Shown here piece by piece: positions 37,349 to 40,681 of a DNA stretch of 64,000 nucleotides. Source of the stretch: an uncultured Cryomorphaceae bacterium (GTDB taxonomy: Bacteria > Bacteroidota > Bacteroidia > Flavobacteriales > Schleiferiaceae); the NCBI GenBank assembly GCA_902614915.1, contig CACMMX010000002.1, positions 1-64,000 of the forward strand, read 5' to 3'. The notes under the pieces were generated by a model. That model did no database searches and had not been told where the DNA came from. It saw nothing but the letters and a program-made list of their open reading frames with translations. The position numbers and the translations under genes are program-made. Each line of letters starts with the position of its first letter. The first letter of the stretch is position 1.

Positions 37349-38034
37349 TTTCGTTGGTACTTTTTATGGCTGTACTCCTGGGAGGATTAGCTTCATTCAT
37401 TATTCAAACGCAAAGTTCTTTATATAAACTAAGTCTCGCGTTTTCAGGCGCATTCCTATTTGGGACTATATTAACTCATCTTTTGCCCGAGGTTTTTACT
37501 AATCCATACGGTAGCTATTGGGTACTTTTGGGTTTTGGTATTCAATTAGTTCTTGACTTCATTAGCAAGGGCCTTGAACACGGCCATTTACACATCCAAA
37601 GAAATAAAATCCCATTACTCCCGCTGGTGGGTTTATTTATTCACGCTTTTATAGAGGGAATGTCGCTTGGACTAGACGGGGAATATCATAAGTACGATAA
37701 ACATCATGGTGACGGCCTATTTTGGTCTATTGCCATACATAAATTACCAATAGCACTTCTTGTTGCAACAGCCTTAAGGTCAGCAAGGCTATCAAGTTGG
37801 AAGGTAATAAGTGGAATTTTAATATTTGCAATATGCTCTCCATTGGGAAATACCTATGCAATTAATACTAATTTTAATCATAGCTTTTTTTTACCGCTTC
37901 TCGGAATTGCTGCAGGATTATTACTTCATGTGAGTACCACTATTCTTTTTGAAAGTGCCTCTAATCATCAATTTAATGCTGTTAAGATGGTAGTAATAGC
38001 CGTAGGCATTTCATTAAGCCTCTTCTTTTCTTAA
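37345..38034 (+). CDS. ZIP family metal transporter
   Basis: LAFSGAFLFGTILTHLLPEVF, GLFIHAFIEGMSLG, IAIHKLPIALLVATAL. Confidence 0.85.
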   Translation: MISLVLFMAVLLGGLASFIIQTQSSLYKLSLAFSGAFLFGTILTHLLPEVFTNPYGSYWVLLGFGIQLVLDFISKGLEHGHLHIQRNKIPLLPLVGLFIHAFIEGMSLGLDGEYHKYDKHHGDGLFWSIAIHKLPIALLVATALRSARLSSWKVISGILIFAICSPLGNTYAINTNFNHSFFLPLLGIAAGLLLHVSTTILFESASNHQFNAVKMVVIAVGISLSLFFS

Positions 38035-38150
38035 GCCACAAGCCTCATATAGTCTTAAAAAAGGCTTTTGATAGGTAAAACTTAACTCAATTTTCACCGA
38101 GTTAGTCTATCTCTATCGTATTTTTACCGAACAATTATAAAAACGAAAAT

Positions 38151-38780
38151 ATGGCTGTACTAGTTGGCAAAAAAGCGCCAGATTTCACTGCGTCTGCGGT
38201 AATCAATGGAGAGGAAATTATTGATGACTTTAAATTATCTGACTACTCCGGTAAATATGTAATCTTATTCTTTTATCCAAAAGACTTTACTTTTGTTTGT
38301 CCAACAGAATTGCATGCATTTCAAGCACGTAAATCTGAATTTGAATCTAAAGGTGTTGAACTCATTGCAGTAAGCACGGATACTGAGCAAAGTCATTGGG
38401 GTTGGTTGCAAATGAATAAAAACCATGGCGGTATTCAAGGAATCACATATCCTATTGTAGCAGACACGAGTAAAACAATTTCACACAATTACGATGTTCT
38501 TGACGGAGAATGGACATACGATGAGTATGGAAATCTGGTAGCGTCAGGAGAAATGATTGCTTACAGAGGACTATTTTTGATTGATAAGGAGGGTACCGTA
38601 ATGCATCAACTAGTTAATTTCTTTCCATTAGGTCGCTCAGTTGATGAAGCAATGCGCATGGTTGATGCACTCCAATATTTTGAAGAAAAAGGGGAAGTAT
38701 GTCCCGCAAATTGGATACCGGGTAAAGAGGCAATGAGAGAAACGCATGAAGGGGTTGCTGATTATTTAAGTAAAAATTAA
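38151..38780 (+). CDS. Peroxiredoxin (2-Cys Prx, AhpC type)
   Basis: FFYPKDFTFVCPTELHAFQ peroxidatic site and GEVCPANWIPG resolving cysteine. Confidence 0.96.
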   Translation: MAVLVGKKAPDFTASAVINGEEIIDDFKLSDYSGKYVILFFYPKDFTFVCPTELHAFQARKSEFESKGVELIAVSTDTEQSHWGWLQMNKNHGGIQGITYPIVADTSKTISHNYDVLDGEWTYDEYGNLVASGEMIAYRGLFLIDKEGTVMHQLVNFFPLGRSVDEAMRMVDALQYFEEKGEVCPANWIPGKEAMRETHEGVADYLSKN

Positions 38781-38959
38781 AAAAATCCGATCTATTTTGA
38801 AACCGTTTGTCGAAAAACAAGCGCTTTTTCTAGAATACAAACAAAAAATTCTTTGATATAGAATAAATCTATATCGTCACTAATTCTCGGGAACACCAGT
38901 AAAAACGCGGATTTATAAAGTAGAAAATTTTTATAAAAAAAAAGTATTCTTTTTTTAGC

Positions 38960-39077
38960 AACTATTGTGAACCTACTCCCTACAACTAGGTTACTTATTT
39001 TATGGAACATTCTGCGGAAGCAGATTTTCATGGCGGTTTAGGTAGAAAGGGGTCTTGGCGGGCCCCTTTCGTTTTTA
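38960..39077 (+). ncRNA. Candidate small structured RNA ending in a terminator
   Basis: Hairpin GTgAACCTA-CTCCCTACAAC-TAGGTTAC, perfect TCTGC-GGAA-GCAGA tetraloop hairpin, then GAAAGGGG...CCCCTTTC-GTTTTT terminator; no ORF of note. 5' end not defined. Confidence 0.4.
39045..39077 (+). terminator. Rho-independent terminator
   Basis: GAAAGGGGTCTTGGCGGGCCCCTTTCGTTTTT. Confidence 0.8.
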
Positions 39078-39087
39078 GAATGTTTCC

Positions 39088-39230
39088 GTATGTATAAAAT
39101 TAGAAAAATGGAGCGAGTTCTTTAGTAAAGAACGCTCATCATGCGGCCCAAAGGAGCACAAAAAAAGTAAGGAAGTCTTTGTAGTGCGGCAAAGACGGAA
39201 AATCCTCATCAGCAATTCTAATTTATATAC
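39088..39230. repeat. Long-range inverted repeat enclosing two internal hairpins (structured RNA or MITE-like element)
   Basis: Left arm GTA[TG]TATAAA[A]TTAGAA (39088-39105) is complementary to right arm TTCTAATTTATATAC (39216-39230). Inside: GAGCGAGTTCTTTA-G-TAAAGAACGCTC (39111-39137) and GTCTTTG-TAGTGCGG-CAAAGAC (39175-39196). Confidence 0.6.
39104..39137 (-). terminator. Terminator-like hairpin, minus strand
   Basis: Minus strand GAGCGTTCTTTACTAAAGAACTCGCTCCATTTTT. Confidence 0.5.
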
Positions 39231-39328
39231 CTCGAGAATTTCAGATTGACTAAATTTCATAACTCCCTATTATCATCGTATAAAGCCCAAAGAAATACTA
39301 GAAATTTTAGTTGAGATTTTATTGCGCA

Positions 39329-39646
39329 TTAGACAGTAAGCTCAATAAGCTTTCGTAAATATTCTTCTTTGCTTGCCGCTGAACCTTCCGCTAAAACTCC
39401 ATCTTTAAAAGAAGCAAGGAAAGGAAGATTATCCACGCCTCCAGACTTTCTAGCATTTGGGCTGTGTTCAGCATTTACTTCTAGAAATACTACATCTTGA
39501 TAAGCTTCTTCGTTACTTACTCTTTTATATTTTGGTGCAAACATTTTACACGCACCACACCAATCGGCAAAATATTTCACCACGACGCGGTCGTTGTTTT
39601 TTATTATCTGAGAGAAGTCCTTATCTGTTGCTAATTGTACTGCCAT
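39329..39646 (-). CDS. Thioredoxin family protein
   Basis: RVVVKYFADWCGACKMFAPKYKRVSNE with WCGAC active site. Confidence 0.92.
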   Translation of the reverse strand: MAVQLATDKDFSQIIKNNDRVVVKYFADWCGACKMFAPKYKRVSNEEAYQDVVFLEVNAEHSPNARKSGGVDNLPFLASFKDGVLAEGSAASKEEYLRKLIELTV

Positions 39647-39775
39647 AATAAAAGAGAAATTTTAACAAAAATATAGTGTCTCTGTATTTTATTCATCCAT
39701 ATTTGATTGACCTTTTCTATAACTTAATAGCCTCCCTATAAGCCCAAGGTTTTAAAATTAAAGAAAGTCAACTAA

Positions 39776-40681
39776 CTATTGTTCTATCTCGGAACGATAC
39801 TCTCTTTGATACATATCGCGAATAAGACCGTCACTCACTCCCATTTTAGGCACATAAATACGAGAGCAACCAGACCACTTCATTACTTTTAGATAAATAT
39901 CTAAACCATAAGTAATTACATCTGCCCGATCAAAATTCAATCCAATTTCGGTGATACGGCGTTCAACATCGAGAGATTGGAAAAACATGCGCTGTCTTTC
40001 AATATAATCGTAGCTCAGGGCCTCTACAACCGGCTGCAGACTGATTTTATGAAGCTCATTGATATTGCCTCCGGCACCTATGGCAGCTTTTTCGGAAATC
40101 GATGTGGCATACTTTTCTAACCAGGTTTGCATCTTATTCCATTCTTCTGCATCAACGAGTTCGTTCATTAAGCGAACACCTCCTATTTTGAAGCTTTTAG
40201 ATCGTAAAACCTTCTTATCCTTGATAATAGAAATTTCCGTTGAACCGCCACCTACATCAATATACACAAAGTTGCTTTCATTAGTATTAATGGCGTCATA
40301 GAATTTGCTTGAGAAAACCAATCTAGCTTCTTCCTTGCCATCAATAACTTCAATATTAATACCAGTTTTACGTCTAACACGCTGAACCACTTGCTTGCTA
40401 TTTGCTGCCTCGCGCATCGCAGAGGTTGCTACTGCGCGAAAATTTTCGACGCCATGCACAGAAAAAAAATGGACATAGGCTTTCATTCCTTCCAAAAATC
40501 GGTCAGACGTTATTTTCCGAATCTTACCGTATTGAAACACATCTTGACCTAAACGAATTGGCAGACGTATCTTACTTGCTTTTTTGTAAAACGTATGACC
40601 TTCTCTATAAATTACATTAACTATTAAACATCGTACCGAGTTAGATCCTATGTCAATAGCCCCGAGTTTTGTTATTTTCAT
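39776..40681 (-). CDS. ppx: Ppx/GppA phosphatase (exopolyphosphatase)
   Basis: LGAIDIGSNSVRCLIVN, ATSAMREAANSKQVVQRV, FVYIDVGGGSTEISII. Confidence 0.93.
   Translation of the reverse strand: MKITKLGAIDIGSNSVRCLIVNVIYREGHTFYKKASKIRLPIRLGQDVFQYGKIRKITSDRFLEGMKAYVHFFSVHGVENFRAVATSAMREAANSKQVVQRVRRKTGINIEVIDGKEEARLVFSSKFYDAINTNESNFVYIDVGGGSTEISIIKDKKVLRSKSFKIGGVRLMNELVDAEEWNKMQTWLEKYATSISEKAAIGAGGNINELHKISLQPVVEALSYDYIERQRMFFQSLDVERRITEIGLNFDRADVITYGLDIYLKVMKWSGCSRIYVPKMGVSDGLIRDMYQREYRSEIEQ

Follow-up and report, generated by a model that had tools for sequence, protein, structure and literature searches.

The 548-bp gap between a plus-strand AhpC/TSA peroxiredoxin gene and a minus-strand thioredoxin gene of an uncultured Schleiferiaceae bacterium encodes, as judged from comparative sequence analysis, one real and lineage-specific small RNA gene, which represents a family absent from Rfam but a kind of RNA that is already known. 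We give a probability of roughly 60% to the reading that this is a single independent plus-strand gene, confined to one genus in the searches described here, whose product acts in trans by pairing. The gap is part of the analysed window, a stretch of 64,000 nucleotides, and its outer neighbours are a ZIP transporter gene upstream and a Ppx/GppA phosphatase gene past the thioredoxin gene. The short repeats and hairpins that a first-pass annotation had listed for this gap are all present in its sequence (Table 1), and a terminator scan of the surrounding 2 kb (38000-40000) returned 7 terminator-like sites compared to 1.2 expected from shuffles. For the gap as a whole, the predicted fold of the plus strand is better than that of shuffled sequences (z -2.97, 1 of 100 shuffles being equally good), and the minus strand displays a weaker folding excess (z -2.04). 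Folding by itself is weak evidence; conservation is decisive.

Table 1. Features of the peroxiredoxin-thioredoxin gap and of the sister-genus element (positions of the window unless preceded by a locus handle).
Feature	Position	Strand	Basis or remark
Peroxiredoxin gene (AhpC/TSA)	38151-38780	+
Gap	38781-39328
Probable peroxiredoxin terminator	38804-38830	+	terminator scan; sets the RNA gene apart from peroxiredoxin
Inverted repeat GATATAG-AATAAAT-CTATATC	38855-38875		seen in sequence
Promoter-like TATTC-TTTTTTT	38945-38956	+	upstream alignments
Small RNA gene	38960-39077	+	covariance model, conservation, pair counts
5' arm UGAACC (UGAAC invariant)	38968-38973	+	pairs with GGUUUA 39035-39040 or local GGUU ~38989-38992
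Hairpin GTGAACCTA/TAGGTTAC	in gap		seen in sequence
Hairpin AUGGAACAUUCUGC-GGAA-GCAGAUUUUCAU	39002-39031	+	alignment; double changes at two upper-stem pairs
Tetraloop hairpin TCTGC-GGAA-GCAGA	39011-39024		seen in sequence
Linker GGCGGUUUAGGUAG, 14 nt, proposed pairing region	39032-39045	+	invariant in all aligned genomes
Intrinsic terminator, invariant CUUGGCGG apex and U tail	39045-39077	+	terminator scan; two pairs with double changes
Probable thioredoxin terminator, stem then U run	39104-39137	-	sequence not conserved
Hairpin GTCTTTG/CAAAGAC	in gap		seen in sequence
Thioredoxin gene	39329-39646	-
Sister-genus element	L129:1323-1445		tadA-MBL gap
Sister-genus element	L133:2351-2473		tadA-MBL gap
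Sister-genus element	L136:1371-1493		tadA-MBL gap
Sister-genus element	L147:2357-2479		tadA-MBL gap

With the whole gap as query, 20 other genomes among 60 related ones were matched, all belonging to the same Schleiferiaceae genus. The homologous span extends at most over ca. 38858-39076, in the closest genome, and usually over 38930-39076, while the thioredoxin-side half of the gap (39078-39328) was matched by none of the 60 genomes. A covariance model built from 19 sequences detected one copy each in 21 of the 25 genomes of the window's genus, the copy of G003 being cut by a contig end, and in the genomes carrying the RNA it adjoins the peroxiredoxin gene. The four remaining genomes likewise lack a peroxiredoxin match at the applied cut-off; as the genus genomes are drafts of 72-93% estimated completeness, loss of the RNA and an assembly gap are indistinguishable in these four. 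The loci that were read share the order ZIP, peroxiredoxin and RNA, followed in most of them by thioredoxin and Ppx on the opposite strand. In a subgroup consisting of L006, L007, L011, L012 and L014 no thioredoxin match is found at the locus, and the RNA is still located beside peroxiredoxin. The peroxiredoxin alignment of this subgroup ends at residue 184, which suggests a shorter or different C-terminal end.

Comparison between genomes gives 94% identity for the 3' module of the RNA (74 nt; minimum 82%), whereas the neighbouring peroxiredoxin gene retains 46% identity at 4-fold degenerate sites and 55% at all third positions. An invariant core next to silent sites that are less than half identical implies that the RNA must matter to these small-genome bacteria. 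Within the RNA, the 27-mer UUUUCAUGGCGGUUUAGGUAGAAAGGG is invariant in the aligned genomes; scanned against one genome per species of 84,980 species, it occurred in 20 contigs labelled Flavobacteriales, Cryomorphaceae, Schleiferiaceae or Bacteroidetes. Among 398 genomes of the order, strong matches were restricted to the window's genus, and outside it there was one weak hit (E 7e-5). The other genera of the family yielded weak matches only, four of which were viewed as alignments: two seemed to share merely the shape of the terminator, and those of G094 and G090 correspond to a sister-genus element with GTTTAGGTTG (see below), as does G108, which was read as sequence.

The proposed fold of the RNA comprises 28 base pairs, and all 560 cells are occupied by standard pairs in 20 of 20 full-length copies; when the partner columns were displaced by one to three positions, the pairing fell to 33-57%. 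Double changes at four pairs account for 19 cells compared to 7.0 in shuffles, and none of 500 shuffles scored as high on double-change cells and on the covariation score. The exchanges include G-C/A-U and U-G/G-C in the terminator as well as C-G/U-A and U-A/C-G in the hairpin at 39002-39031, the loop of which is of the GNRA type in 19 of 20 genomes. The covariation check on homologous gaps proposed in the first-pass annotation thus came out in favour of the RNA, its hairpins being alignable among relatives with four covarying pairs, and the covariation rests on few columns because most pairs are invariable. The more 5' hairpin formed by GTGAACCTA and TAGGTTAC, likewise claimed at first pass, does exist, but it is outdone in conservation by a long-range pairing of its 5' strand: the helix UGAAC(C/U)-GGUUUA is 100% paired in 20 genomes, with no double changes, and the local 5' hairpin is paired in 88.6% of cells in 19 genomes. 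Predicted pairing probabilities of the UGAACC alternatives differ by genome, and in several genomes the predicted fold has part of the linker paired. A switch between the two pairings of UGAACC is possible since their partners are largely invariant.

If the gap contained nothing but back-to-back terminators and no separate RNA were produced, the terminator-like stems present for both neighbouring genes would be accounted for. However, the invariant 14-nt linker, the 5' UGAAC and the covarying GNRA hairpin would be left unexplained, and conservation far exceeds that of silent sites, which renders this arrangement highly improbable. Of the one or two small RNA genes initially envisaged, the plus-strand one, with its aligned and covarying hairpins, stood up to the comparison, and a second, minus-strand RNA was rejected, as this half of the gap is unconserved and terminator-like. 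The idea of a tail-to-tail arrangement was also given up because the minus-strand stem is most simply the terminator of thioredoxin; where the window has this stem (39137-39104), relatives carry other terminator-like sequences 3' of thioredoxin.

Assignment to a described family was attempted with 4227 Rfam families at gathering and relaxed thresholds, and no family fits; neither 6S-Flavo, Bacteroidales-1, bacterial SRP and Flavo-1, which had been singled out for checking, nor any of the rest reaches the gathering score, whether in the window or in the ten related loci searched. The earlier guess of a 6S-like RNA found no backing in the same window and loci, which lack a 6S-Flavo match. A whole-genome search for 6S-Flavo found no match either, but the control genomes gave none, so that absence of this RNA from the genome is not established. 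6S RNAs adopt the shape of a long stem with a central bubble. 6S-Flavo (RF01685) resembles the window RNA in being a standalone Bacteroidota RNA of similar length (108 model positions), and differs from it in forming a single long stem with central bubble instead of separate short hairpins. A cis-regulatory leader or riboswitch was rejected because the gene that follows is encoded on the other strand and a terminator closes the RNA. Read as a brief mRNA, the locus would specify a conserved small protein (MEHSA.ADFHGGLGRKG.WR.PFVF), and an ATG-started, indel-free frame does traverse the conserved module in 20 of 20 aligned copies. We nevertheless rejected a small-protein gene as extremely unlikely, since amino-acid replacements fall in nine variable codon columns against one that is silent, and the frame lacks a common stop and reads through the terminator. 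The locus carries a distinct and conserved RNA gene that ends at a terminator of its own and is not a message, as is characteristic of intergenic trans-acting sRNAs.

The RNA gene is about 110 bases long, its 3' end being set by the terminator and its 5' end being approximate (38960-38968). A T run, preceded by TA in most genomes, lies 11-12 nt ahead of UGAAC, a nearly constant distance, and this spacing suggests a promoter for the RNA. The element appears compatible in sequence with a box of the TAnnTTTG type, the -7 element of flavobacteria (PMC9723704). Further upstream, the TATAG-AATAAAT-CTATA repeat of the window is found again, similarly placed, in the nearest relatives L002, L004, L009, L010 and L017 and may, on account of this recurrence, be a regulator binding site. 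Alternatively, the RNA might stem from the 3' end of the peroxiredoxin mRNA, freed by processing or made from an internal promoter, so that its level would track that of peroxiredoxin. In line with this origin, the RNA is always found on the same strand downstream of peroxiredoxin, and in the subgroup specified above its core starts 107 nt past the aligned peroxiredoxin end with no intervening terminator seen by eye; transcriptional read-through from peroxiredoxin is possible there. The separate stem-loop with a T run just after peroxiredoxin in the window and several relatives, together with the promoter-like T run before the RNA, argues against a 3'UTR origin, which we regard as unlikely but worth keeping in mind.

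For the preferred reading of an independent trans-acting RNA we propose the following scenario: The RNA would have a promoter of its own beyond the peroxiredoxin terminator, with transcription ending at 39077, and would act in trans via the linker GGCGGUUUAGGUAG. Opening of the hairpin foot UUUUCAU would extend the pairing of the linker, and the extended linker might then pair with ACCUAAACCGCC-AUGAA-type start regions, to which linker and hairpin foot are complementary, and block their translation. In the idle RNA, the 5' UGAACC may mask the linker. Repression as the outcome, and any link to oxidative stress, we infer.

The start region of an ABC exporter ATPase gene is the best target candidate on the basis of predicted complementarity. 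In G018 it offers a perfect complement of 17 nt including the start codon (-32.5 kcal/mol), and in G007 strong complementarity is kept (-28.6 kcal/mol); the other eight exporter genomes are divided into four at -20 to -23 and four weak ones at -10 to -18 kcal/mol. At the cut-off used, the exporter gene was detected in 10 of the 25 genomes, the window's own genome not being among them. When 407 start regions from the loci examined were ranked, the exporters of G018 and G007 came first and second, a rank that is indicative only because the set includes regions chosen for complementarity. Complements of the 14-nt linker with at most 1 mismatch are roughly as frequent outside the RNA gene itself as in the control, and ACCTAAAC shows no genus-wide enrichment close to ATG, its count lying below the control. 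That the genomes contain no enriched complement would suit a structured decoy that binds a protein or the ribosome and pairs with no message, as would the GNRA hairpin and the joint invariance of linker and terminator apex. The 17-nt match across the start codon in G018, partly retained in G007, speaks against such a decoy, and we judge it to be rather improbable.

The assumed pairing of the window RNA with messages has counterparts in the phylum. GibS, a Bacteroides sRNA of 145 nt, pairs over the start codons of its targets and shares with the window RNA an intergenic location in Bacteroidota, a similar length, conservation within the genus, and hairpins with a Rho-independent terminator (PMC7366714). 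Compared by description, GibS carries a conserved single-stranded seed at its 5' end, whereas the invariant linker of the window RNA is inserted between hairpin and terminator (PMC7366714). Rfp18 of Flavobacterium is similarly a structured and genus-conserved RNA of the Flavobacteriales, which acts in trans and has a predicted pairing region common to its targets; in contrast to the window RNA, again compared by description, this region is located in the third stem-loop, and the targets are metalloproteases (PMC9723704). The pairing mechanism proposed here stays tentative because it draws on one good case and on the analogy to GibS and Rfp18. Characterised sRNAs of Bacteroidota are few, and a search of the open-access literature brought up no paper that connects Schleiferiaceae to small RNAs. 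In Bacteroides, no obvious Hfq or ProQ has been found according to the GibS report (PMC7366714). The present analysis provides a defined sequence, a covariance model and a first testable target candidate.

A secreted-protein gene with a conserved ACCTAAACCCC before its start was also considered and rejected as target evidence, because its whole leader is equally conserved and is present also in genomes where the RNA was not found. In L241-L249 this leader, GTAGACTAACTTATTAAGGAGCAGTTTT...TAACCTAAACCCCTT, is far better conserved between species than the secreted-protein start that follows it, and the gene is divergent from a gene with a RNIAIIAHVDHGKTT motif.

A different RNA-like element resides in the gap between tadA and a metallo-beta-lactamase-fold gene in about half of the genomes of a sister genus of the family. 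It consists of a hairpin followed by an almost invariant GUUUAGGUU and then a terminator, with a sigma54-like TGGCA-N-TTTTG element ahead; in L129, L133, L136 and L147 the order is a sigma54-like TGGCAC-N5-TTG, a hairpin, a near-invariant GTTTAGGTT and a terminator. Like the window RNA, it presents a hairpin and then GUUUAGGUWG directly ahead of the terminator; unlike it, it has another gene address, another hairpin and a sigma54-like promoter element, and the likeness is by shared motif only. A more far-reaching proposal would be a two-state regulator, in which local pairing of UGAACC exposes a GGUUUAGG seed and pairing with the seed hides it, and in which the module of GUUUAGGU plus terminator defines a wider Schleiferiaceae sRNA family that has moved between addresses as well as promoters, the sister genus having a sigma54-like one; we consider this proposal doubtful. 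The sister-genus element folds with z values of -3.4 to -4.9, and the stem of its terminator is wholly different in one genome.
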